Assembly: GCF_017876535.1 (NCBI RefSeq)
Contig: NZ_JAGIOF010000001.1
Location: forward strand, 1,364,001 to 1,428,000
Direction of reading: 5' to 3'
Origin: Paeniglutamicibacter kerguelensis
GTDB taxonomy: Bacteria; Actinomycetota; Actinomycetes; Actinomycetales; Micrococcaceae
DNA: 64,000 nt
The translations under genes and the position numbers were made by a program. The notes under the pieces were generated by a model. The model was not told the DNA's origin. It saw nothing but the letters and a program-made list of their open reading frames with translations, and searched no databases. Below, piece by piece: positions 428 through 63,399 of the stretch. The number at the start of each line of letters is the position of its first letter. Position 1 is the stretch's first letter.

Positions 428-759
428 CTTCTCCTCGTTATGGGGTACAGCGGGGGCTGTGTGCCGAACGAAAGTTTCGTGTTCAGCACACAGTGGCGTT
501 GCAAACGCCAAAGTTTGTGGCCCGTTCCTCAAGGGTGGTTGGTCGCGGACCTTCGCTTACACTCTAGTGCTCGGCGGTGCTCAACCTGTACCTGAGTTGC
601 TTGCGAGAAAGTCGTTGACGGTGCTCAGATGGGGTCTCGGACGGCAAAAGTGGGTCGAAGTCATCACTATTTCGGCGTGTTGGAGCCTCTGCGCTTGATG
701 GGAGCGCAAAAAGGGTGTTTGGTTGTACCAGACGCTTGAACACCAGCAGGAGGAGTGAC
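428..759. promoter_or_regulatory. Divergent aceE / DUF3052 intergenic region with two palindromes
   Basis: No gene is visible here. On the aceE side are a perfect CGAAAGTTTCG palindrome (469-479) and an inverted repeat GGCGTT-gca-AACGCC (495-509). Both lie 40-85 bases upstream of the aceE start, where a regulator of pyruvate dehydrogenase would bind. That role is inferred from position only. Confidence 0.4.
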
Positions 760-1176
760 GTGAGCGACGCCGCACCGGCAAAGCACGAAGCCGCACAGAA
801 AATGGGCTTCAAAGATGGGGACCTGATTCAGGAACTCGGATACGACGACGATGTGGACTTTGACCTCCGCGATTCCCTAGAGGAAACGGTGGGCTCCGAG
901 CTACTTACTGAAGAAGATCACGAGGTAGTAGACGGCATCGTCTACTGGTGGCGTGCCGACGACGGGGATCTAGTTGATGCCCTGGTCGATTCGCTGGTCA
1001 GCCTGGATGAGAAGGGTGTTGTGTGGCTGTTGACCCCAAAGTCGGGGCGCGACGGCTATGTGACACCTGCAACAATCCAAGAGGATGCACCAACCGCGGG
1101 ACTTCATGTGACAAATACCGAGGGTGTTTCCGAGGACTGGTCGGCAACCCGACTGGTTGCACGCCGCAAGAACTAG
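760..1176 (+). CDS. DUF3052 family protein
   Basis: A 138-residue acidic soluble protein of a conserved actinobacterial family with no assigned biochemical function. The start is the GTG at 760, preceded by AGGAGGAG. The body contains ELGYDDDVDFDLRDSLE and VDGIVYWWRADDGDLVDALV, both typical of the family. It is divergent from aceE and followed five bases later by a peroxiredoxin, the same order as the aceE-Rv2239c-ahpE neighbourhood of mycobacteria. Co-transcription with the peroxiredoxin is likely. Confidence 0.85.
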   Translation: MSDAAPAKHEAAQKMGFKDGDLIQELGYDDDVDFDLRDSLEETVGSELLTEEDHEVVDGIVYWWRADDGDLVDALVDSLVSLDEKGVVWLLTPKSGRDGYVTPATIQEDAPTAGLHVTNTEGVSEDWSATRLVARRKN

Positions 1177-1180
1177 GGCG

Positions 1181-1672
1181 TTGGAAACATCACAATCGGT
1201 TTCCGGGAATGAAATCCCGGCGCCGGGGGCCGGTGAAGTGGCCCCGGGCTTTGTCTTGCCCAATCAGCACGGGGAACTCATCGACTCCCGTGCGTTGGGG
1301 GAGCAGGCCTACTTTTTAGTCTTTTACCCGTTCGCGTTTTCCGCGGTCTGTGGGTCGGAGCTTGAAGAGCTCGAAAAAGCACGAAATGAATTCACCGCCC
1401 GGGGTGTGCGCATCCTGGGGGTATCGGTGGATCACAAGTTCGCATTGCGAACCTACGCCGATCAATCCCGATTCGGGTTTGATTTGTTGGCCGACTTTTG
1501 GCCACACGGTGCCGTTGCCTCAGGTTACGGTGCCTTCGATTTTGAGTCAGGCGCGGCAACGCGTCACACGTTCCTCATCCGTGGAACACATGTGGTTGAT
1601 TCCTTTAGTTCACCCATCCATCAGGCGCGCGCCATCGCTCGCTACAGAGAGGCGATTGACCTACTCACCTAG
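1181..1672 (+). CDS. AhpE/Bcp-type peroxiredoxin
   Basis: A thiol peroxidase of 163 residues that would reduce hydroperoxides in the cytoplasm. The peroxidatic cysteine lies in FYPFAFSAVCGSEL, equivalent to the AhpE active-site loop. ILGVSVDHKFALRTYADQ and the C-terminal region fit the AhpC-TSA fold. A TTG at 1181 gives the usual AhpE length and starts just after the DUF3052 stop. A longer ATG start at 1124 would overlap that gene and add residues unlike the family, so TTG is preferred but not certain. Confidence 0.85.
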   Translation: METSQSVSGNEIPAPGAGEVAPGFVLPNQHGELIDSRALGEQAYFLVFYPFAFSAVCGSELEELEKARNEFTARGVRILGVSVDHKFALRTYADQSRFGFDLLADFWPHGAVASGYGAFDFESGAATRHTFLIRGTHVVDSFSSPIHQARAIARYREAIDLLT

Positions 1673-1673
1673 C

Positions 1674-1709
1674 AGTTGTCGAAGATCACATTGCGTCGAT
1701 TCGACAACT
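1674..1709 (+). terminator. Stem-loop after the peroxiredoxin gene
   Basis: Inverted repeat AGTTGTCGAA (1674-1683) and TTCGACAACT (1700-1709), which starts at the stop codon. It has no U tract, so it is a weak intrinsic or Rho-assisted terminator. Confidence 0.6.
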
Positions 1710-1792
1710 AGGGTGGGTCATCCGCTAAGTTAGTTACTTGTCACGAACACTTCGAACGGAAGTTATTCCGCACGAACCAGTAGTGTCGAGAA

Positions 1793-1868
1793 GGGCCTTT
1801 AGCTCAGCTGGTAGAGCGTCACGTTTACACCGTGAATGTCATCGGTTCGATCCCGGTAGGGCCCACCA
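1793..1868 (+). tRNA. tRNA-Val(TAC)
   Basis: Complete cloverleaf with acceptor stem GGGCCTT/AGGGCCC, D-arm AGCTCAGCTGGTAGAGC, anticodon loop TTTACAC (anticodon TAC) and T-arm GGTTCGATCCC. CCA is encoded (1866-1868). An identical tRNA body recurs at 13274, and a decayed copy lies at 8871. Confidence 0.97.
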
Positions 1869-1871
1869 AAG

Positions 1872-1920
1872 AAAAACCCGCAGTTCCCCACGGTTACGCC
1901 GATGGGAACTGCGGGTTTTT
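1872..1920 (+). terminator. Strong intrinsic terminator of tRNA-Val
   Basis: A 17-bp stem, AAAAACCCGCAGTTCCC (1872-1888) with GGGAACTGCGGGTTTTT (1904-1920), ends in a T tract. A near-copy follows the decayed tRNA at 8951. Confidence 0.93.
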
Positions 1921-2319
1921 TGTGTTGTGGCACCTATTTTTCGCCCGCCAATGCGTCAGGCGGGGCGGGGTCGAACCTACGCGAAAAAGGGTCAAGGCTT
2001 TTCACAGAGTCGGGCTGGAACGATCATCCCACGGCCGAAACAGGGCCCCGGGCCGACGCCAGTTCTGCGACAGACTATCCGGGTCACCGGAAAATCCGAA
2101 AGGCTCGAACTCCGGGTGTCCCGTCCGTGACTTTCGGGCCAAGAGACGCATCAATTTTGCGGCGCACGCAAGGGCCCGACGTTCCCCAAGCTAAGACCTT
2201 CGTTGGCATTGCCTGACAGTTGCCCAATTGGCCGCACCTTCTAGGGATGCAGATAGCAAGGTTTCCTAAGGGTGGGAGTTGCACAGTGATCGTACATTTT
2301 GGTTCCTCTTAGGAGTTGA
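1921..2319. other. Intergenic stretch without visible gene
   Basis: No ORF here has family similarity or a ribosome site. The overlapping frames look like shadow frames. The leader of the surface-protein gene lies at its right end. Confidence 0.5.
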
Positions 2320-4278
2320 TATGAAATCCACTCATTCCGGAAGGCCAGCGCGACGCGCTGTGGCCGGCCGGTACATGCAACGCAAAATCGCTCTGGCCGC
2401 CATCGGGCTGCTGGCATTGACCACCGTGGCCCCGGCACAAGCATCAACCGAGGTCACCGTAAAGAATCCCGGCGGCATTGTTTCCGTCGGCCCAGTGAAT
2501 GCCGATTTCGGTTTCCCAAGCTGGTACCAGGACCGAGCCGGCACACGCGTCGAATTGTGCCTCGATGCACAGAACCCGCTCTGCGGGCTCCTTCCCGGTG
2601 ACGTCCCAAACGAAGATCTCCCCATTTCCTTCCCCGACAATTTCCCCGAGGAAGCCTTCTACATGCTCGCTTCCACAAAGTTGGATCTTCCGGGAGGTGG
2701 ACGGGCCGTACTGGTTCTTGGCGTTGAAGCGGCATTCGCCAACCAAGTACAAGCCGGAGACCAGGTCGTCTTTGGCCGTCAACGCGTCACCGTCCGCGGC
2801 GCCACCCCCAACGCGACCCTGACATTCAGGCACCCCTACGGGACGCTGACCATCGACACCGACGCCGCCGGTGACGGGAAGTTGGTTGAGGATATCTCAC
2901 CGGCCGCCGGAAACTTCACCACGGCCCTGAAAAGCAATATCGGACCATTCCTTCGCTGGGATCCAGCCACCGCACCCGCTGCCCCTAGCGGCTACCTCGG
3001 CGATCCCGGCCAGGAGCACACGGTAACGGGCAGCCCCTTTGGTTACAACAAGTTCTCGGTCAGCGGCGGGGGACTGAACCAGTCCACCAACCTCTTCTCC
3101 CTGCAAGGAAAAATCTCCACCAACACCGGTGTGGAAACGCAGCGAGCTCTGCTCGCAAGTGACATGATCGACGTCTTTGCCAGCAGCGAAGGAACGCAAC
3201 TGCAGGTCGAAGGGCAAGAGGGCAAGTTCAAGACAACCCGATGGAAACAGACCCTGGATCCAAGCGGTTTTACGCACGCATCAAGTTCACCGGTGCCGCG
3301 CCCACACAAATCAAGGTCAGCAACATTGGAGACAAACCGATCAGCAGCTCGGTCGTCAACGTTTCCAAGCCACATGGAATCACCGTGCTGAAGGCCGACT
3401 ATGACGGCACGATCCTGAGTGTCGCCGCGGCATCCCGCTTCGGCAACGCCCTGACCGTCGATGGGCTCGGAGCACTTGCGACCGGAGCCACGCCGGATGC
3501 AACGCAGAGCGCGAACTTCACGGTAGTTGCGCCGCCGGAACGCATCACGCTCTCGGATGCTGCCGGCGGCCAGATGAGCATGGCCGTGAGCATTCTCGGG
3601 GGAGACGCCACCCCCGAAGGTCTGCCACCGGTCACCCCTCAGCCGGATCCCGGACCTGTCATCGACCCGGCCCCGGACCCGGCGGCACCTGCCGTCGCTC
3701 GTGCCACCGCGTCCGTCACAAGCATCAACTATGGAGGCTCCGTGGTCCTTGACGGCAGCACCTCCACCGGAGCAGTCAGCTACAAATAGTCGCAGGTGGC
3801 CGGTGCGCCGGTCACGCTGTCCAGTACTACGACCGCCAAGCCAACGCTCAGCATGCCGTTTTTCGCCAAGGCCTCTGACACGGTTCCGGCCGTGGTTCCG
3901 GCCGCAGTCCCGATCCGAATGCGGCTGATGGTGACCAATGCGGCAGGCGTGGCCAGCGCTCCGGCCACCGTGGAACTCATTTTGAGGACCGACGCCGTGA
4001 GCATTTCCGCCGGAACCAGGCACCGTTTGGGTACAGAGTTCAGGATTGCGCGCACGGCAGTCCAACCCGGTGCCGCGGTGCAGCCGACACCCGGCACCGC
4101 GTTGATGATCTACAACACCACCCCCGGGAGCCCCGTGACCAAGTTGGGCACGGCGGTTGTCGACGCGACCAACAATTGGCAGCTAAAGATCAAACCCGGT
4201 CCCAACCGGCAGATTACATCCGTCATGGTGCAGTCCACCCGGGGTTCGGTTGCAACGACTGCGGTAGCCAATCGCTGA
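2320..4278 (+). pseudogene. Secreted surface protein gene, broken by a frameshift and a nonsense codon
   Basis: The start ATG (2320) has a TAGGAG site. The product opens with a signal peptide (positive region to about residue 25, hydrophobic IALAAIGLLALTTVA, cleavage near AQA-ST). The next roughly 300 residues hold VGPVNADFGFPSWYQD and ISFPDNFPEEAFYMLA, resembling a family of uncharacterised actinobacterial exported proteins. Near 3236-3240 reading must move from frame 2 to frame 1. One missing C in the ACAACC-CGATGG run restores the frame. A proline-rich linker (PQPDPGPVIDPAPDP) follows. Then an Ig/PKD-like domain is cut by TAG at 3787-3789, where YK-stop-SQVAGAPVTLS implies an original Trp. 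Similarity resumes in frame to 4278. Two lesions suggest real decay; the first could be a sequencing error. Confidence 0.75.
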
Positions 4279-4305
4279 GGCCCATCACCGGGCTAGCACC
4301 ACCTG

Positions 4306-4345
4306 CTCCGTGGTTGCCGACTTACTTTTGCCGGCAACCACGGAG
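4306..4345 (+). terminator. Stem-loop after the surface-protein pseudogene
   Basis: Perfect 14-bp stem CTCCGTGGTTGCCG (4306-4319) / CGGCAACCACGGAG (4332-4345) with a 12-base loop. Confidence 0.75.
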
Positions 4346-8996: not shown

Positions 8997-9836
8997 TTTC
9001 CGCGGCATGGGCGTCTTGCTCGGGGCCGGGTTCCGGAACCCGTTGTCCGGCTGGCACAAGGAATGCCAGGCACGGGTCTTCGGAAGCATCCAGCGACCAC
9101 TCGGCAAGCCGTGCGGTGACTGTGACGGGGCCCTGGCTCCTTCCGCCGGTTCACACCGGGAGGCTGGAACTCATGTCGGCGAACGGCAGGCTCCGAGAGG
9201 CCCTGCATGTTCGTTGGCCGGGAGCATTTGCCGTTACACCCGCATGACGACTTTCTTCGACGCGAACTCGGTTGCTTCCTCCGGACGAGGTTCCTTCCGG
9301 GACCTGCGTAAATCCAAAGCTTTTCACAACCTTCGGGGTGGATGATCAGCATACGGTTTAGCCACGGTCAAAGGCCGATGTAGACGTCCATCAGGCTTCG
9401 AGGTGAACCGCTCGCTCGGCGCACCGGTTGTCCCAACCGGGTCCTCGAGCCTGTACCGCACTAATATTGCGGTGCCTTCGAGGGTCCCGCTTCCCCCAGG
9501 CCGGACCCTCGATGCATTTCCGCGGTGCCAGGGTTTCCTGGCACCGCTGGAAATAGCAGTTCGTTGGCAACCCGTACGCCAGCGAATGCAGGGGCGTAGT
9601 CGGTACCAGAGGCCACCCGAACCGCCTATTTCGCTTGTCCGGTCGGCTTGCCAGCCAAGGCATGACGTTTGGCAGGAATTTCGGACTGTTTCTACCAATT
9701 GTGATCCGTTCGTGGTTGACCCCCCTTTTTTCGGGGGTCTGTCGCCCCCCTTCCTAGCGGCTTATGCCAGTTGGCCAAACACTGAATTATGGGGTTTGTC
9801 AGTATTTTGGGGATAAGGCACTTGGGGAGCTACAAA
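8997..9836. other. Non-coding stretch with a run of hairpins before SARP copy 2
   Basis: No frame shows a recognisable protein. Perfect inverted repeats occur at 9424-9440 (CCGGTTG-tcc-CAACCGG), 9478-9512 (TCGAGGGTCC/GGACCCTCGA), 9522-9547 (11-bp stem GCGGTGCCAGG, loop GTTT) and 9718-9739 (GACCCCC/GGGGGTC). The last could end upstream transcription. The others are unexplained. Confidence 0.5.
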
Positions 9837-10817
9837 GTGAATGTCAACACTGATGTATTCGGGGTAGAGGACTGTGCCAGCGGGCGTGTAAGCGCCAAGG
9901 TACTTGGGACACTGCAAATCCGTCGTGGAACCGAGGTGCTTAGCGCCCAGCACTTGGGTGGGCCGAAGTCGAGGCAAATCCTTGAGATACTCTTGCTTCA
10001 TCTGGGCTCGGCGGTATCAAAAGGGACACTCATCGACATGTTGTGGATGGAATCAGCGCCTTCGACCGCAGTTTCAACCCTTGAATCATATGTTTCGGTT
10101 CTGCGACGTTGCCTTCAACCGGGGCAGGGCAAACGCGGCGTTCTGAAAACCACCACGGGTGGATACCTTTTAGATGCGGATCTGATTGATTTGGATTTGG
10201 CCCGCTTTGACTCTTTGTTGACCCGCGCCGAACAGGCCACTGGCGAGCAAGCTGCAGCACTGTTGCGGCAGGCGCTGGCTATTTCTGATGAGCCGCTGCT
10301 GGGCCACGAGCTCCTGCCGGAATGGGCCGAGGCGGAACGAACCCTGCATGCTGCCCGGGTCATGGCCGCAAGGGTTCTGGCCGCTGAAACGGCGCTGGCA
10401 CTGGGGCAGCTGAACGAGGCAATTGGTCTGGCCCGGCAGGTGCTGGACCTTGACCCGCTCAATGAACCAGCGTGGTCGGTGTTGATTCTTGGCATGGAAC
10501 AGATTCGGCAACCACTGCGCGGACTGCAAGCCTATGAACAGTGCCGCCGAGTAATGGACAGGGAGTTGGGTTGCCAGCCCGGTGAGCTGCTGCAGCAAGC
10601 GCAACTCCGAATGTTGCACGAAACGTCATCGTCGAACGATGACTTTGCCCTGGTGATCAGGGCGCTGCTGGCACTTGAAGGCTCCGGTGGCGGCGTGGCC
10701 GTATCGCCAGGGATGGATCGATTCGACTCTTATGCAGGCGGGGAAATCACATTGAACGAGGCGGGCACCATAGTGCGTGGCTACGTGGAACGGATGATGA
10801 CGGCTGCCGCAGTCTAA
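9837..10817 (+). CDS. SARP-type regulator (winged helix + BTAD), copy 2
   Basis: A 326-residue paralogue of the regulator at 4504, aligning over its whole length: winged helix (KVLGTLQIRRGTEVLSAQ, GGPKSRQILEILLLHLG) then BTAD (DLDLARFDSLLTRAE, DEPLLGHELLPEWAEAE, YEQCRRVMDRELGCQP). The GTG at 9837 has GGGGAG 7 bases upstream and matches the copy 1 start. It is followed by a NarL-type response regulator and sensor kinase on the same strand, forming a three-gene signalling module. Linking a SARP to a two-component pair suggests a regulatory cascade. Target genes are not apparent. Confidence 0.87.
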   Translation: MNVNTDVFGVEDCASGRVSAKVLGTLQIRRGTEVLSAQHLGGPKSRQILEILLLHLGSAVSKGTLIDMLWMESAPSTAVSTLESYVSVLRRCLQPGQGKRGVLKTTTGGYLLDADLIDLDLARFDSLLTRAEQATGEQAAALLRQALAISDEPLLGHELLPEWAEAERTLHAARVMAARVLAAETALALGQLNEAIGLARQVLDLDPLNEPAWSVLILGMEQIRQPLRGLQAYEQCRRVMDRELGCQPGELLQQAQLRMLHETSSSNDDFALVIRALLALEGSGGGVAVSPGMDRFDSYAGGEITLNEAGTIVRGYVERMMTAAAV

Positions 10818-10959
10818 ACACCCGCGACCCAAGCGACGGTGGGCGCGGGGCGAGACATCCCCTTGCCAAGGTTCAAGATCATCGCAATACTAACCCTAAG
10901 TGCCGAACCTGGCACCCATGTTTTGGGTAGGTCTTCTTGGGGAAGCAACGGTGGGGAAC

Positions 10960-11631
10960 ATGAATTCCGTGGCGGGGGACGAAGGAATTGCGGTGTCTCG
11001 GATTGTGGTGATAGACGATCACGCGACTTTTGCGGATTTGCTGTCAGGGGCGCTGAATCGCGAGGTGGACCTACGGTGTATTGGCACGGCCAATACGCTT
11101 GAGGCAGGGGTAGCACTGTGTATCAAAGACGAACCGGATCTGGTGGTGATCGACTACCGGCTGCCGGACGGAGACGGGTTGCAGGGAGCCGAGCGGATCC
11201 TCAGGGCGTTGCCATCGATGCGCATTGTGATGCTCACTGGCGACCCGACCTCTCAGGCCATGCAACGGGCAGCTTCCCTTGGTGTGTGCGGATTTCTGCC
11301 CAAGGATGGGGCATTGTCAATACTGCTGGACGTTTTGCGCACGGTACGCCAAGGTGAGTTCATAGTCGGTCCGGCACTCATTTCAGAGTTGCTGAAGCCC
11401 CGCCAGCTTGAGGTTTCCATGAACCCCGGCCTGACTGCCAGGGAACTGGAGGTGCTGCAGCTAATGAGTCAGGGATTCGATGTGACTGCCAATGCCCGGA
11501 CGCTGGCAATTAGTGCCCACACGTGTCGCGGATACGTGAAATCGATCTTAAGTAAGCTCGACGCCCATTCCCAGCTCGAGGCCGTGGCCACCGCCAATAG
11601 GCTGGGACTCGTGGGCGCGGTCGGCCAATGA
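10960..11631 (+). CDS. NarL/LuxR-family response regulator
   Basis: A 223-residue DNA-binding response regulator. The receiver domain (about 13-130) has the acidic pair in IVVIDDH, phospho-acceptor Asp about 65 in LVVIDYRLPDGDG, Thr in MLTGD and Lys in GFLPKDG. The LuxR-type helix-turn-helix (about 155-215) shows LTARELEVLQLMSQG and SAHTCRGYVKSILSKLDAHSQLEAV. The ATG at 10960 follows GGTGGGG. The stop overlaps the sensor kinase start (ATGA), so the two are translationally coupled. Confidence 0.9.
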   Translation: MNSVAGDEGIAVSRIVVIDDHATFADLLSGALNREVDLRCIGTANTLEAGVALCIKDEPDLVVIDYRLPDGDGLQGAERILRALPSMRIVMLTGDPTSQAMQRAASLGVCGFLPKDGALSILLDVLRTVRQGEFIVGPALISELLKPRQLEVSMNPGLTARELEVLQLMSQGFDVTANARTLAISAHTCRGYVKSILSKLDAHSQLEAVATANRLGLVGAVGQ

Positions 11632-12998
11632 TTCGTTTTGGACGAGGCGACCACCCCACGACTGCCTTGCTGCGCGAAGAAGGCTCGTCCGTGCGATCGG
11701 CAATTCTGAAGTTCTTGCTTACCGGCCTGGTCGTGCTGCTGACGGTATCGATACCCGCGACCTTCTGGGGGCGCAGTGTCGCCCAGAATCTGGCCAAGCA
11801 AGAGGTCTTGGAGCTCACGCAACGACTGGCGGACTACGCCATTGGGCCCGTGCTCAACCCCGATCTGGCGGCCGGGGACAAGTCGGCTGTGGCACAGATC
11901 GATGCACGAATGTCCCCGTGGATGTCCGATGAAATGATCCTGCGCATCAAGGTCTGGGATTCCAACGGAACGGTTCTTTATTCGGACGTGGGCGAGCTCA
12001 TTGGAGAAACGTTCCCGCTTGAAGAATGGGCCGAGGAAATGCTGGCCGGGGGACCTGGTGTGGTCACCCTGGGTCCGCAGGACGAAGGCGAGAATATCTT
12101 CGAGGCGGGCAGCGAAGACCTGGTGGAAGTATACGTATTGGCTGGCGCCGGCACGGATACGCCGCTGCTCTTTGAAATGTATTTTCACGCTGATGTCGTG
12201 CGTTTGCCTGAACATCACATGCTCCTTGGCATGATCCCAGTGTTCTTGGTGGCCTTGGGCGTTTTGCAGGCCGCGCAGCTGATCCCCGGCATCGCTCTGG
12301 CCAAACGTGTGCAACGATATCAACGGGCCCGCCGCGCATTGCTGCAACAGGCAATCGAGGCCGGTGAACAGGAACGGGTCAGGCTTGCCAGGGACTTGCA
12401 TGACGACATCATCCAGGATCTGGCCGGGCTGGCTTACGCATTGGATTCGTCAACTTCCGCCGACGGATCTGCACCCAGTGAGATCCTGCAGGGGAGCATC
12501 CGTAAGTTGCGTGAGGTAACCAGCGACCTGTATTCGACGCCGGTGAATGCGGCCGAATTGCCGGCGGCTCTGTCCGTGTTGGTGGAACGCACTCGAAGCA
12601 AGGGAATCCGGACCCGGGTCGATATTGCCGAGCCGCTCACCCTGGATAGCCGACAGGCGACAATGCTCTACAGAGTCGGGCGCGAAGCGCTGGTGAACAT
12701 CATGAAACACGCGGATGCAAAGCACGTGCAGCTGAGCCTGAAGCCCAACGGAGGGTTTTGGACCTTGAACATCGCCGATGACGGGCTGGGATTCGACGTG
12801 CTGAAGGGCGGCAAAGAGAAACATTTCGGACTGCGCATGATGTCGGATGCCGCGGAAATGGTCGGTGCTCGTTTGGAACTTGCCAGCACTCCGGGCGGCG
12901 GAACCAGTCTCTCGGTCACCACCGGTGGCCGACCTATAGCTATGCGGGAGCACGACATGTTGATTGACGAAGCTGTCCTTTCCGCTGGCAGGGCGTAA
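11628..12998 (+). CDS. NarL-type sensor histidine kinase
   Basis: A 456-residue membrane kinase. Helix 1 is about residues 24-47, an extracytoplasmic sensor spans about 50-195 (acidic, with no named domain recognised), and helix 2 is about 198-218. A HisKA_3 dimerisation segment carries the phospho-acceptor His 258 in RLARDLHDD. The HATPase has the N box REALVNIMKHADA, IADDGLGFD and GLRMMSDAAEMVGA. It overlaps the response regulator by 4 bases and is its likely cognate kinase. Confidence 0.9.
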   Translation: MIRFGRGDHPTTALLREEGSSVRSAILKFLLTGLVVLLTVSIPATFWGRSVAQNLAKQEVLELTQRLADYAIGPVLNPDLAAGDKSAVAQIDARMSPWMSDEMILRIKVWDSNGTVLYSDVGELIGETFPLEEWAEEMLAGGPGVVTLGPQDEGENIFEAGSEDLVEVYVLAGAGTDTPLLFEMYFHADVVRLPEHHMLLGMIPVFLVALGVLQAAQLIPGIALAKRVQRYQRARRALLQQAIEAGEQERVRLARDLHDDIIQDLAGLAYALDSSTSADGSAPSEILQGSIRKLREVTSDLYSTPVNAAELPAALSVLVERTRSKGIRTRVDIAEPLTLDSRQATMLYRVGREALVNIMKHADAKHVQLSLKPNGGFWTLNIADDGLGFDVLKGGKEKHFGLRMMSDAAEMVGARLELASTPGGGTSLSVTTGGRPIAMREHDMLIDEAVLSAGRA

Positions 12999-15106: not shown

Positions 15107-16975
15107 ATGCACAAGCAGCCAGCATCTCGCTCCATCCAGGCCCAGCATTCGGAAGCCTACGGGAAACTGCCGTTCGACGACACCGCCGACTTCGACCTCG
15201 TTGAACGGGGGTTCATTGCCACCATCAAACCCAACGTCATACACGACGACAAAGGTGCCGTGATCTGGGACAACGACAGCTACGGGGACTTCTCCGGCGA
15301 CGCACCGAGCACAGTGCATCCGAGTCTATGGCGTCAGTCGCGGCTGGTTGCACGGGCGGGACTCTTCGAGGTCACCGAGGGCATCTACCAGGTACGTGGA
15401 CTCGACCTTTCCAATGTGACATTCATTGAGGGCGGGAGCGGAATCATTGTCATCGACCCGCTGCTGTCCAAGGAAACCGCGGCCGCGGCACTTGCGCTGT
15501 ATCGGGACCACCGCGGGGACCGCAAGGTTGTTGCGGTGATCCACACCCACAGCCACGTGGACCACTTTGGCGGCGTCTTTGGCGTCACCAACCAGGAGGA
15601 GGTCGACTCCGGCGCGGTTCAGATCATCGCGCCTGAGGGGTTTGTTGAGCATGCGGTTTCCGAAAACGTGTATGCGGGCACCGCCATGGGCCGACGGGCC
15701 GGCTACATGTACGGTGCGGCCCTGGAACGTGGACCACAGGGCGCGGTTGGCGCCGGGCTGGGTCAGACGACCTCGACGGGGGACATCGGGCTGATTGTCC
15801 CGACCCTGACCATCTCCCGGACCGGGGAGACCCACACCATCGACGGCATCGAAATCGAGTTTCAGCTCGCCCCGGGAACGGAGGCACCCTCGGAGATGCA
15901 TTTCTATTTCCCGCAGTTCAAGGCCCTGTGCATGGCGGAGAACGCCACCCACAACTTGCACAACCTGCTGACCCTGCGCGGAGCCCTGGTCAGGGATCCG
16001 CATGTCTGGGCGCAGTACCTGACGGAGGCAATCGACCGGTACGGCGACCGCACGGACGTAGTCTTCGCCTCGCACCACTGGCCCACCTGGGACAGGGAAA
16101 CCGTCGTGGAATACCTGTCGATCCAGCGGGACCTGTACGCGTACCTGCACGACCAGACGCTGCGGCTGATCAACCGCGGCTACACGGCCGCCGAGGCCGC
16201 CGAGGAATTCGTGCTGCCCCCCGCCCTCGAGAATGCCTGGCACACCAGGGGCTACTACGGTTCGGTGAGCCACAACGTCAAGGCCATCGTCCAGCGGTAC
16301 CTGGGCTGGTTCGACGGAAATCCGGCACGGTTGTGGCCGCATCCACCCGTCGAGCTGGGCAAGCGCTACGTCGAGGCCATCGGCGGGATCGACAGGGTCG
16401 TTGAGGTGGCACGGTCCGCCTACGACGCGGGCGATTTCCGTTGGGCGGCAACCCTGCTTGACCATGCGGTATTCTCCGATGAGAACCACGCGGACTCCCG
16501 GGCCCTGCTGGCCGACACCTTTGAACAGCTGGCCTACGGCTCGGAGAACGGCACGTGGCGGAACTTCTACTTGTCCGGTGCCACGGAACTGCGTGGTGCC
16601 AACTTCGGTACCCCGACCAAGACGAATGCGCCGACGGTCATGGCACAGCTCTCACCCGAGCAGTTGCTCAGTGCCATCGCCATCACGGTGGACGGGCCGA
16701 GGGCCTGGGACCTGGATTTGAACTTCGCGATCGATTTCACCGACCTGGGTCGGAGGTTCCTGGTCACCCTGAACAATGGCGTGTTGATCTACCTGGAAAC
16801 CGCCGGAGGTGACGTTCAGGCCACGCTGCGTATTGCCAAGGGCCGCATGCTTGCATTGCTGGGCGGCGATGCGGACTCGCCAGGGGTGGACATCGAGGGC
16901 GATCCCACCGTGTTGAAGCAGTTGCTGGCGGTGTTGGACAAGGGGGACGATGCCTTCGCCATCGTCACTCCCTGA
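15107..16975 (+). CDS. Alkyl sulfatase, metallo-beta-lactamase fold (SdsA1/BDS1 family)
   Basis: A 622-residue enzyme that would hydrolyse primary alkyl sulfates to alcohol and sulfate. The MBL domain (about 90-400) carries HTHSHVDHFGG, the LAPGTEAPSEMHFYFP block, CMAENATHNLHNL and ASHHWPTW, all zinc-site and family signatures. An alkyl-sulfatase dimerisation domain (about 420-520) and a C-terminal SCP2-like domain follow. TTAGGAG precedes the ATG. No signal peptide is seen, so it is probably cytoplasmic. Its neighbours are remnants, including a SulP permease fragment, so it is the only intact gene left here. Confidence 0.92.
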   Translation: MHKQPASRSIQAQHSEAYGKLPFDDTADFDLVERGFIATIKPNVIHDDKGAVIWDNDSYGDFSGDAPSTVHPSLWRQSRLVARAGLFEVTEGIYQVRGLDLSNVTFIEGGSGIIVIDPLLSKETAAAALALYRDHRGDRKVVAVIHTHSHVDHFGGVFGVTNQEEVDSGAVQIIAPEGFVEHAVSENVYAGTAMGRRAGYMYGAALERGPQGAVGAGLGQTTSTGDIGLIVPTLTISRTGETHTIDGIEIEFQLAPGTEAPSEMHFYFPQFKALCMAENATHNLHNLLTLRGALVRDPHVWAQYLTEAIDRYGDRTDVVFASHHWPTWDRETVVEYLSIQRDLYAYLHDQTLRLINRGYTAAEAAEEFVLPPALENAWHTRGYYGSVSHNVKAIVQRYLGWFDGNPARLWPHPPVELGKRYVEAIGGIDRVVEVARSAYDAGDFRWAATLLDHAVFSDENHADSRALLADTFEQLAYGSENGTWRNFYLSGATELRGANFGTPTKTNAPTVMAQLSPEQLLSAIAITVDGPRAWDLDLNFAIDFTDLGRRFLVTLNNGVLIYLETAGGDVQATLRIAKGRMLALLGGDADSPGVDIEGDPTVLKQLLAVLDKGDDAFAIVTP

Positions 16976-59893: not shown

Positions 59894-60466
59894 TCATCCG
59901 TGCTCGGTGTCGCCGAGCAATTCGAGCACGATCAGTTCCATCTCGGCCGTGGAAGCGTCCTCCGACCGGTTTGACGTGTCCACGATGGAGCATCCCATGC
60001 GTTGGGCAATCGTCCTGTACCGATCGATGTAGTGGCGGTGAAGTGCGACCGATTCCCCGGGCTCGTCGCGCAGCGCCAAGCGTCCGAGCGTGGTGGGCAG
60101 ATCAGCCCAGCACAGGATGGTGGGTATCCACAGGGTCCACCTATCGCGGAAATCCTCGTCGTCCACCAGCGACGCGACGGTCATCCACGACCTGTCCAGA
60201 ATCAGGGGCCGCCCCTCGCCGGCGGGCTGCACGGCCCGGGCCAGGGCGTCGGCGCCGATCCTCAGCACCGCCGCGGTGTCACCGGACGCGGCGGCACGCG
60301 ACAGCGCCAACCCCCGCTCGCCGCCAAAGGGCCGCCGGTATGAAAAGCCCAGCCGGGTCGCGACGTTCTTGGCGATCGTCGTTTTTCCGGTGCCGTCGTG
60401 CCCGTCGATGCCAACTACGGCCGGCGTCGGTGACCTCGACGGCATCGATGCCGTGTTCATTTCCAC
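59894..60466 (-). CDS. Thymidylate-kinase-like P-loop protein
   Basis: 190 residues. Walker A is GIDGHDGTGKTT (about 19-30) and a DR motif sits in LILDRSWMTVASL (about 88-100). DLPTTLGRLALRDE resembles the lid region and HRHYIDRYRTIAQRMG the C-terminal helix, so the fold is that of dTMP kinases and related nucleoside kinases. It is the last gene of a four-gene operon, and its start overlaps the AbrB-like gene by 10 bases. It is shorter than housekeeping Tmk and stands outside a DNA-replication context, so the substrate is unknown. Confidence 0.75.
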   Translation of the reverse strand: MEMNTASMPSRSPTPAVVGIDGHDGTGKTTIAKNVATRLGFSYRRPFGGERGLALSRAAASGDTAAVLRIGADALARAVQPAGEGRPLILDRSWMTVASLVDDEDFRDRWTLWIPTILCWADLPTTLGRLALRDEPGESVALHRHYIDRYRTIAQRMGCSIVDTSNRSEDASTAEMELIVLELLGDTEHG

Positions 60467-60765
60467 GGATGCAGGGCAACCGTCTGCCGCTCGTCGTCCA
60501 ATTCAAAATAGAAGTGCCGCTCTTTGCCCCCTTCGAGTACACGCAGGGCCTCTCCGCGGACCTCCATCTGCCCCCTGGGCGATACCCGGAATCCGCCATC
60601 CGCGGTCGCCGGTGCGAGCAGCACGGTGTTTCCCTTGACGCTCACCGTGACCCGGGCACCGGCCTTGGGCTTCATGCCAAGGGTCTTGCGTGCGGAAACC
60701 GGCAGGGTGATGACGCCGCCGGGGGATACCTTGGCGCGGGTGTTCTTGACGGTCAGCGTGCTCAT
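60457..60765 (-). CDS. AbrB/SpoVT-fold protein
   Basis: 102 residues with an N-terminal swapped-hairpin AbrB domain (VSPGGVITLPVSARKTLG, KAGARVTVSVKGNTVLLAP), as in MazE/AbrB antitoxins and regulators. A second beta-rich segment follows (VSPRGQMEVRGEALRVL, FYFELDDERQTVALHPW). It overlaps the PurC-like gene by 4 bases and the kinase-like gene by 10. It could be the operon's own repressor or an antitoxin-like partner. Confidence 0.8.
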   Translation of the reverse strand: MSTLTVKNTRAKVSPGGVITLPVSARKTLGMKPKAGARVTVSVKGNTVLLAPATADGGFRVSPRGQMEVRGEALRVLEGGKERHFYFELDDERQTVALHPWK

Positions 60766-61784
60766 GGTGAATTCTCCCTGGGGGTTTGAAGGGGTGGGGA
60801 CGGGTGTGGATCAAACAGCGTGGAATACAGCCGGGCGTAGCGTTCGAGAACCTGCTCCGGGCTGCCGCCGCTGCGCCATTGGTCCTTGTCGAGTGCCTCC
60901 GCGTCGTCGGAGGCATGCGTCCTCACGCGCATGCAGTCCGGACTGATTTCCCCGTAGATGGTTCCGCCGCTCTGGTCGATGAAGAAGCAGATGTCGATGA
61001 GCCTCAGGCCTCCGGTGGTGAAGAAGTTCTCCAGCCAGCCGAACGTCTCGCACGCAAGGAACTTGGCCCGCTGCACGTCGCCGATCCACAACGCGGCGTA
61101 GTCGTCGGGCAGGGGTTCGTCCGCCAGCCGGTTTCCCTCGTGGTCGGTGAGCGGATGCCGCCAGTCGAAACAGACGATGGGGTTCGCGAACCTGTCCCAG
61201 CGCTGCAACGGCTGCCCGGCCACCGTGGAGTGCTCCTCGGTGAAAAGGTAGCGGTGGATGGGGGAACCGATATGGTAGCGCTTGACCCTGGTTTCCAGGT
61301 TGCACACCTCGACGCGGCGTTCGGCCAGCAGCGGCCCGGCCGGGGACTCCACCAGGGCCAGGAAAGCCGACGAAAGCCGGTACGGGCCCGGTGAGAGTGC
61401 CATCTTGCGGAAGATTTCCGCAGAGAACCTGGCCCGGATGTCTTCCGTCCCCTTGACCTCCCCGTACCTGTTGTAGGTGAACGAGTACAGGGTGGGGAGC
61501 AGCCTGGCCAGGGCGATCTTCGGCGTCAGCAGGCGGATCTCCTTGCTGTCGCCAAGGACCAGCAACGGCAGCTTCTTGAAATCGAATTTGATCTGGCGCA
61601 GGACCTGTTCCACGAAGGAATGCCGGTGGTGATCGAGGTCCACTCCGATCTCTTCCCCGCCCGGACCCTTCAAGATGACGTGTTTTGTGGTGGAAGAAAC
61701 CAGCTGCACCTCGAGTTCAAGGTCGAGGCACTGGTCGAGAATCAGGCTGGCGGCCGCGCCGGCCCGGAGTGCTGACGTAATCAT
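60762..61784 (-). CDS. Diverged SAICAR synthetase (PurC) homologue
   Basis: 340 residues. The second half aligns well with PurC: RRVEVCNLETRVKRYHIGSP (PurC VPvEcVvRnraaGS), CETFGWLENFFTTGGLRLID, GTIYGEISPDCMRVR (PurC GDEfSPDgsR) and ALDKDQWRSGGSPEQVLERY (PurC mDKDrfRqslGg..eaYe). Yet the DxKxEFG motif is DICFFID here, so the lysine is lost, and the Asp of GDE is Gly. The first 130 residues are unlike the short PurC N-terminus. GGAGG precedes the ATG. It is in an operon with a nucleotidyltransferase and a kinase-like protein. It is not the housekeeping purine enzyme. Confidence 0.8.
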   Translation of the reverse strand: MITSALRAGAAASLILDQCLDLELEVQLVSSTTKHVILKGPGGEEIGVDLDHHRHSFVEQVLRQIKFDFKKLPLLVLGDSKEIRLLTPKIALARLLPTLYSFTYNRYGEVKGTEDIRARFSAEIFRKMALSPGPYRLSSAFLALVESPAGPLLAERRVEVCNLETRVKRYHIGSPIHRYLFTEEHSTVAGQPLQRWDRFANPIVCFDWRHPLTDHEGNRLADEPLPDDYAALWIGDVQRAKFLACETFGWLENFFTTGGLRLIDICFFIDQSGGTIYGEISPDCMRVRTHASDDAEALDKDQWRSGGSPEQVLERYARLYSTLFDPHPSPPLQTPRENSP

Positions 61785-61800
61785 ATTTAACCTCCTGCTT

Positions 61801-63138
61801 TTAGACGCCTTGGTTGGGTGCCCGTTGGGGGCGAACCACCTTGAATTGCTCGTTGAGCGCGCGCAGCACGGCACCTGTGGCGACCGCGGATTCGGCAAGG
61901 GCCCGACCGGGGTCGCCGTCAGAGGCCAGCTGTTGCATTTGGGCGGTCCGGAATCCGCAGATGGACTCGATCCATTGGTGGACTTCTTCCTTTGTGAGGC
62001 GTTGGTTCATGGCCCCGAACGTCCCCTTGGCGATGTTGGCCGGGATCTTGGTGAAGTACCCGTAGAGGTTGTGGCGATCGTCGCCCGGCCGTGGTCGGTC
62101 CGCCAACGCCGCCCCGATCATGCCCAGTTGCTGCCGCTGCCGCACGATGCCGAAGCTCAGGTTCCGCATCAGTAGATCGGTCGTGGACTTGGCCGGAACG
62201 CGTGTTTCACCGTAGATGCATAGCCCGTAGTCGGCCAGGTTGTCTCCCGAAAGGCACTGCATGCGCCACAGTTCGTCGGATGAGTAGACGCCGACGTTGA
62301 GCTCCTTGCCGGCGAACCGCGGCGACGTCGCATAGAGCTTCCGCAGAACGACCTCAGGGTCTTTGACCACCAGCACCAGGTCGTAGTCGGCAAATTCCCT
62401 GCTGTTGACGCTGGAGCCGTAGACGATGACGCACTCGAGCTGGGACCCGATGCTGTGCCGCAGCTCGTCGATGAAGCCGAAGCGGGGACCAAGGACCGGG
62501 GGGACTTCCTGCCGGGCGAGGCTGACCTCCGTTACGAATTCCGGACCGCGGAGGTGGGCAACGACCTCTTCGAAGCGGCGCCGGATGGCCAGCAGGCGCT
62601 CCAGGTCGGAGGTGCCGGAGTCGCGGGCCATGGCGGTAACGTCGTCCATCAGCAGCTGGCCCTGCAATCCCGGAACCAGGCCCGTCGAGGCGAACTTTCC
62701 GGCCTGCCAGAGCCTGTCGTACTTGCTGGCCAACGTGCCGCTGCTGAAACGGGATTGGACGATGGCAGCGGAGAGCGTGACGGATGCCAGGAAGACCACC
62801 GACTCAAACCACAACCGTTGGAGGGAGGAGTCGGTGCCATTGGCCTCCACCGGTTGCAGGGGGCGAACGGTTGTTGCACCGGTGCCTGCGGCGGCCCGGT
62901 AAAAGCGCGGATGGTACACCGAGGACCATTCCATGGTGATGGGCGAGATCACCCGCGGGTTTTCCAGGTGCTGTTCCGTTGCCCAGCGGTGGATGCCCAG
63001 GAGCTCCGCACCGGAAACCTCGCGGTCGAGGTGGACATAAGAAAGGTGGAATGGAGTTCCCCGCCAAGAGGGAGGTCGCTCAACAACGACCACTTCGCGG
63101 ACCGTATCTGGCGCCGTATCCGCAACGCGCGCCGACAT
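61801..63138 (-). CDS. Nucleotidyltransferase-fold protein, first gene of a four-gene operon
   Basis: 445 residues. A polymerase-beta-like NTase motif lies at about 235-260: VIVYGSSVNSREFADYDLVL, i.e. GS followed by a DxD pair. The N-terminal 190 residues (HLDREVSGAELLGIHRWA, VFLASVTLSAAIVQSRFSSG) and the helical C-terminus (RLTKEEVHQWIESICGFR, AESAVATGAVLRALNEQFKV) are not recognised. It lies 16 bases upstream of the PurC-like gene. The domain could adenylylate or otherwise nucleotidylate a small molecule, RNA or protein. The exact family is unknown. Confidence 0.75.
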   Translation of the reverse strand: MSARVADTAPDTVREVVVVERPPSWRGTPFHLSYVHLDREVSGAELLGIHRWATEQHLENPRVISPITMEWSSVYHPRFYRAAAGTGATTVRPLQPVEANGTDSSLQRLWFESVVFLASVTLSAAIVQSRFSSGTLASKYDRLWQAGKFASTGLVPGLQGQLLMDDVTAMARDSGTSDLERLLAIRRRFEEVVAHLRGPEFVTEVSLARQEVPPVLGPRFGFIDELRHSIGSQLECVIVYGSSVNSREFADYDLVLVVKDPEVVLRKLYATSPRFAGKELNVGVYSSDELWRMQCLSGDNLADYGLCIYGETRVPAKSTTDLLMRNLSFGIVRQRQQLGMIGAALADRPRPGDDRHNLYGYFTKIPANIAKGTFGAMNQRLTKEEVHQWIESICGFRTAQMQQLASDGDPGRALAESAVATGAVLRALNEQFKVVRPQRAPNQGV

Positions 63139-63399
63139 CCCAGACCCCCTGTTCCGCCGAGTGGCCCGCCGCGGCGAGGCGCCGCAGGGCAGCTCAGTAC
63201 CCCCAAGTTTCCGCCTGCCGGGCGTTCACTGTCAACGAATGGGGTTGCCGCTTCTGAGCCGGGCGGTCCGGAACGCTTGGCAAACCAACGGCTCTAATCC
63301 GGACCTCCATGGACCACAAATCCGGGCAATCGGGCCGATTTCGCCGGCGTGCCACCCGCGTGGCCGGATGTTGCGTCGTGAACTGGCAGGATGGGACCC
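63139..63399. other. Divergent intergenic region
   Basis: It separates the four-gene operon from a membrane-protein gene. No feature was recognised beyond a CAGGAT box (63387-63392) 7 bases before the rightward ATG. Confidence 0.4.

Follow-up and report, generated by a model that had tools for sequence, protein, structure and literature searches.

Clusters for coformycin and pentostatin reportedly combine a SAICAR-synthetase homologue (CofB/PenC) with a short-chain dehydrogenase (SDR; CofA/PenB) and HisG. CofB is said to act on a branch-point intermediate of the histidine pathway, phosphoribulosyl-formimino-5-aminoimidazole-4-carboxamide ribonucleotide (PRFAR), and to give 8-ketocoformycin 5′-phosphate with no amino acid needed. 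PRFAR itself is made by HisG, HisIE and HisA. Here we describe a unit of four genes, designated NT, PURC, ABRB and KIN, at 59894-63138 on the minus strand of a 64,000-nucleotide stretch of the Paeniglutamicibacter kerguelensis genome (hereafter the window), and compare it with these clusters. The PURC protein falls in the same clade as five SDR-linked SAICAR-synthetase homologues from what look like clusters of this kind, and counterparts of the unit in a Bacteroidales genome and in Lak megaphages are tied to HisG or the early histidine pathway, as is one of the five SDR-linked loci. The unit differs from the coformycin and pentostatin clusters in having no SDR, in adding a nucleotidyltransferase of AadA fold, an AbrB-type protein and a nucleotide kinase, and in being spread across phyla and, in part, phages. 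We propose that NT, PURC, ABRB and KIN constitute a self-contained cassette, moved horizontally, which serves a nucleotide pathway inside the cell, and that this pathway diverges from histidine biosynthesis; the proposal is built on sequence comparison, and we hold it to be about evenly balanced or a shade better.

The first gene, NT (61801..63138, minus strand, 445 residues), encodes an N-terminal domain of about residues 1-208 with no detected relative, followed by an AadA-like nucleotidyltransferase domain at 209-436. PURC (60762..61784, 340 residues) has the SAICAR-synthetase fold and lies in the SDR-linked clade that we provisionally label CofB/PenC-like; ABRB (60457..60765, 102 residues) consists of tandem AbrB-like halves, and KIN (59894..60466, 190 residues) is a P-loop nucleotide kinase of the thymidylate-kinase type. 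The tight packing described in the sequence-only reading, four same-strand genes with a 16-base gap and two overlaps, is borne out, the overlaps measuring 4 and 10 bases. Purifying selection acts on all four genes when the window is compared with two other actinobacterial loci (L009 and L010), and NT, PURC, ABRB and KIN almost certainly form one functional unit.

Relation of PURC to SAICAR synthetases

PURC matches the Pfam family SAICAR_synt (E 2.1e-6) and gives no match at E 1 to TIGR00081, the model for PurC. At E 0.001 this model matched none of the PURC proteins from the eight cassette loci described below and matched a separate PurC in each of these genomes. A profile of nine PURC proteins, searched at E 1e-6 against 246 genomes from a single actinobacterial genus with large genomes, found matches in five of them, none of them at the canonical PurC. 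In all five of these loci, which we call COF, the SAICAR-synthetase homologue directly adjoins an SDR gene. HisG is present in one (L023), HAD and MFS genes are present in another (L022), and the HAD protein of L022 has full-length matches at E 1e-3 in three of the five (L022, L024 and L025). From their neighbourhood (HisG, SDR, SAICAR synthetase) we provisionally take the COF loci to be pentostatin/coformycin-type clusters, a label that draws on gene content and not on a named producer. A GTP cyclohydrolase I-like gene also lies close upstream of the SAICAR-synthetase homologue in L024 (5769-6302, Pfam E 6e-43) and in L025 (5745-6281, assigned by eye).

In a tree the nine PURC and five COF proteins split from 14 canonical PurC proteins with support of 100/99, and the split persists when the two long branches, the Lak PURC and the PurC of L038, are left out. 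Under a symmetric rule, by which a column had to reach at least 78% in two groups and at most 20% in the third with gap columns excluded, PURC and COF share 27 columns, compared with 4 for PURC and PurC and 4 for COF and PurC; the corresponding counts of fully fixed columns, invariant in each of two groups and never seen in the remaining one, are 10, 0 and 0. The columns common to PURC and COF include the motifs GxSK, SFT..R and SPDCMRxR, and the position of the lysine in the PurC DxK motif is Cys in 14/14 PURC and COF proteins and Lys in 14/14 PurC proteins. The blast score of PURC is 85 bits against the COF protein of L022, versus 30 bits for the best-scoring of the three canonical PurC sequences compared. 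PURC further differs from PurC by some 70 extra N-terminal residues. What it has in common with PurC is the fold and 14 columns that are shared by all three groups and take in catalytic-site motifs: both E and D in EISPD are included, as are residues of the DKD/R motif.

The possibility that PURC is a spare PurC was rejected on the strength of its separate clade and of the finding that all 13 genomes checked (eight cassette hosts and five COF hosts) have a PurC of their own. Twelve of these score above the TIGR00081 cut-off, and the PurC of the Bacteroidales host (G491) scores 184.8 bits against a cut-off of 189.9. The sequence-only reading had called PURC a diverged SAICAR synthetase; the fold stands, whereas the tree places the protein in a separate SAICAR-synthetase-like clade. 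Judged from these comparisons, PURC is probably not a SAICAR synthetase and very likely belongs with the SDR-linked, coformycin-type clade.

A link to early histidine biosynthesis

In the Bacteroidales metagenome-assembled genome (MAG; G491, locus L015) the cassette runs directly into histidine genes. HisG, HisA and HisIE (9763-11794) come straight after KIN, with a 4-base overlap into HisG, and their Pfam scores are 85 bits for HisG, 241 bits for HisA and 108.5 and 75.9 bits for HisIE. The cassette copy is the only HisG in G491, and HisG is present in all eight cassette host genomes. The only full-length His_biosynth (HisA/HisF-family) protein in G491 is likewise the cassette copy, with no HisF detected there, and the six other genomes covered by this search have two such proteins each. 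Histidinol dehydrogenase (HisD) was not found in G491 and is present in the other seven of the eight cassette genomes. If PRFAR is indeed the substrate of CofB, the cassette of L015 carries the supply line for PRFAR and nothing more.

Among 119 relatives of G491, itself included, HisD occurs in 41 and HisG in 43. Both genes are present in 40 and neither is present in 75, so HisG without HisD is exceptional in this lineage; HisD stands alone in one genome (G1219) and HisG in three. These three are G491, G1216, whose match lies near a contig end, and G1149. The match in G1149 (L088, 3507-3877) is interrupted by stop codons, and no PURC lies next to it or next to a second HisG in the relative G1245 (L089).

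Relatives in Lak megaphages

A PURC relative was found in 15 of 50,697 phage records, all of them Lak, at 37% identity and 77% query coverage. HisG is present in the same 15 Lak records and in eight other phage records. In the two records that were read, Lak-B7 (L008, MK250026.1, 2561-6786) and Lak-A1 (L046), a conserved same-strand run comprises, in this order, genes for an RNA ligase, a small protein, HisG, a P-loop kinase, Ham1, a CTP_transf_like nucleotidyltransferase and PURC. The run resembles the cassette in bringing together a PURC relative, HisG, a P-loop kinase and a nucleotidyltransferase. It differs in that its nucleotidyltransferase is of another fold (CTP_transf_like), its kinase is shorter, it includes a Ham1 protein, and ABRB was not seen within it. 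HAM1 is a family of inosine-nucleotide hydrolases. A collection of viral contigs gave no match to PURC, to NT or to the PURC of Lak; the Lak query missed itself there, and the collection may not include Lak.

Distribution and apparent mobility of the cassette

A scan of one genome per species across 84,980 species with six 8-residue peptide patterns found seven further loci, which is a lower bound. They belong to Paeniglutamicibacter (L009, from Paeniglutamicibacter quisquiliarum; L003 was taken as the same genome and not counted separately), Arthrobacter, Collimonas, a Nitrospirales MAG, Mesorhizobium, Cupriavidus and a Bacteroidales MAG. Complete NT-PURC-ABRB-KIN sets in unchanged order are found in six of the eight loci, the window included, and span four phyla. 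The conserved co-occurrence that the sequence-only reading had suggested looking for is thus seen, and the genes, far from being scattered in all relatives, hold their order across phyla, on which ground a reading of them as chance neighbours was rejected. In L011, the Collimonas copy, which is truncated by the end of its contig, only the end of NT is present, followed by PURC, ABRB and KIN. L014 has PURC and ABRB only, flanked by genes that look transposase-like by eye. The contigs of L011, L012 and L014 are each shorter than 10 kb, and further genes missing from them carry little weight.

PURC is present in two of 197 genomes of the window's family, both from its genus (G000 and G190), and a profile search at E 1e-15 found it in one of 395 genomes of the phylum of the Bacteroidales MAG, which is that MAG. 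Weak PURC matches in 4 of 296 phylum genomes cover residues 226-318 only and are not used as support. Identity of the window PURC is 56-59% to its counterparts from Proteobacteria and Nitrospirales and 53% to that from Bacteroidales; values still this high across phyla favour transfer of the cassette from one to another. By these measures it is rare and apparently horizontally moved. Within the genus of the window it occupies a variable spot between a conserved glycosyltransferase-like gene (by eye) and a conserved block; in the 12 genomes compared, out of 15 of the genus, the spot holds the cassette in two (G000 and G190) and 0.2-0.8 kb in nine. In G168 (L084, ~660-4320) the spot is about 3.7 kb long and includes genes that resemble those for transposases and AAA proteins. 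PURC and NT had no match in a plasmid search.

Products of NT, KIN and ABRB

NT has no match in Pfam or NCBIfam. Its nearest solved folds are antibiotic adenylyltransferases of the AadA type, and the residues Y240-GSS, D251 and D253 are invariant in 6/6 NT proteins. Identity to AadA / ANT(3'')(9) is only about 14%, and NT differs from these enzymes also in its 208-residue N-terminal domain without a match, which, modelled alone, gave a weak model (pLDDT, the predicted local distance difference test, 68) with no convincing fold match and nothing at E 0.001 in a viral fold library. A further difference concerns the catalytic Glu87 of AadA, which we presume, from an alignment by eye, to correspond to the invariant Asn281 of NT. 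Among known systems, the Hailong defence nucleotidyltransferase HalB is also one of the closest. KIN matches the thymidylate kinase family phrog_761 over residues 15-184 (E 3.6e-9), so that its earlier description as thymidylate-kinase-like is fair. The two halves of ABRB are an internal repeat (hhalign of both halves, E 1.9e-6, probability 90), and the protein scores 20 bits against TIGR01439, for which the cut-off is 28.3. ABRB is most likely a single-chain AbrB pseudo-dimer that regulates the operon.

Proposed pathway and alternative explanations

In the pathway that we propose, PRFAR would be made by the HisG, HisIE and HisA of the host or by cassette-borne copies, and PURC, acting in the manner of CofB, would convert it by ring closure into a 1,3-diazepine nucleotide of the same type as 8-ketocoformycin 5′-phosphate. 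KIN would add a further phosphate to this nucleotide monophosphate, NT, with its AadA fold, would transfer or cap the nucleotide product onto some acceptor, and ABRB would control the operon. That the substrate of PURC is PRFAR or a near neighbour appears rather probable; the identity of substrate and product, the order of KIN before NT and the role of ABRB are what we infer from the relationships described above. A COF-type SDR, sought by tblastn with three SDRs, was found in 5/5 COF loci and in 0/8 cassette loci, also at E 1e-3, and a HAD protein of the L022 type was likewise found in 0/8 cassette loci at E 1e-3; three of these eight loci are on short contigs. Given that neither was found, the keto group and phosphates may be retained on a product that stays inside the cell. 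The sequence-only reading had offered two options, and we favour the first, in which the genes would produce a modified nucleotide or a signal derived from a nucleotide; it can now be specified as a CofB-like branch of histidine biosynthesis.

Several observations weigh against this pathway. Identity between PURC and the COF proteins is low, at about 28-31%. HisG, HisA and HisIE accompany only one of the eight cassettes, and the others would depend on their hosts for PRFAR. G491 is a MAG of unstated completeness in which the absences could be assembly gaps, and partial matches to the His_biosynth family, four in number and scoring 22-36 bits, are present there as well. The Lak records contain no match to the HisA or HisIE of L015, NT is unmatched in the phage records, and the Lak kinase is only 19% identical to KIN. 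Finally, the presumed third catalytic acid position of NT is Asn in 6/6 proteins, and for this reason nucleotidyl transfer by NT may be unusual or weak.

The Pfam match of PURC and the 14 columns common to PURC, COF and PurC, with the EISPD and DKD/R residues among them, would also suit an ATP-dependent amide ligase that works in the manner of a true SAICAR synthetase. Such an enzyme would couple a carboxylated purine-like nucleotide with an amino acid, and from the resulting amino-acyl nucleotide KIN and NT would produce a modified base or cofactor. Such a role is unlikely: by the tree and the shared residues PURC groups with the SDR-linked proteins, apart from PurC, the DxK lysine of PurC is replaced by Cys throughout PURC and COF, and the HisG, HisA and HisIE neighbours in L015 are left unexplained. 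Those SDR-linked relatives lie in nucleoside-antibiotic-like clusters, one of which (L022) has MFS and HAD genes, and could be taken to mean that the cassette makes a secreted nucleoside antibiotic, with NT, whose nearest solved folds are antibiotic adenylyltransferases, or KIN protecting the producer by modifying it. However, the SDRs linked to all five COF loci and the HAD protein found in three of them are unmatched in the eight cassette loci, none of the four genes encodes an exporter, and KIN and NT would add charge, as suits a product that stays in the cell; secretion of an antibiotic is in our view quite improbable.

The other option of the sequence-only reading, a toxin-like nucleotidyltransferase with AbrB-type control, corresponds to a toxin-antitoxin-like or abortive-infection module in which NT would be a nucleotidylating toxin, ABRB its antitoxin, and PURC and KIN the suppliers of a special nucleotide. 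All that speaks for a toxin here is weak fold similarity, that of NT to AadA-type enzymes, and no toxin family was matched by any of the four cassette proteins. ABRB consists of two AbrB halves and little else and stands third in the gene order, away from NT, and PADLOC gave weak matches only for the four proteins (best E 7.3e-4). We consider a module of this kind a poor candidate.

The end use of the histidine-branch pathway is a matter of speculation, for which our leading guess is defence or phage conflict; we arrive at it because of the rarity of the cassette, its variable site, its patchy spread across phyla, its few defence-type neighbours and the counterpart in Lak. A fuller version, which is doubtful, has the diazepine nucleotide retained and phosphorylated and then used by the nucleotidyltransferase either as a second messenger or to tag a target of the cell or of a phage, in a conflict system that might, for example, block nucleotide deaminases; the Lak version would then serve counter-defence or the phage's own nucleotide pool. 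If the pathway is right, coformycin-type chemistry is not only an actinomycete antibiotic speciality but a portable intracellular pathway in distant phyla and giant phages, and histidine biosynthesis is tied to a new nucleotide. The substrate of PURC is directly testable, as in G491, where neither HisD nor HisF was detected, the enzymes leading to PRFAR are encoded right beside the cassette, and the gene run of the Lak megaphages gains a first functional handle. We know of no earlier report of a portable coformycin-type pathway or of a function for the Lak run, though no literature search was made for either.

Upstream element and neighbouring genes

A promoter- or operator-like element on the minus strand at 63201..63235, some 60-100 bases upstream of NT, consists of TTGACAG followed by CGGAAACT(T/G)GGG. 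It is kept in 3/3 actinobacterial loci aligned (the window, L009 and L010) and is the predicted promoter/operator of the NT operon. In the flanks of L009 and L010 most genes are not defence-like by eye. Downstream of the Bacteroidales cassette lie a KAP NTPase gene with a sub-threshold EVE match (L015, 14655-16823) and a gene encoding Mrr_cat and HU-type DNA-binding domains (L091, 2471-3409). In Mesorhizobium, L013 encodes the C-terminal part of a DndH-like protein (PADLOC E 1.9e-44) at 16127-16945, which is some 6 kb downstream from the cassette.

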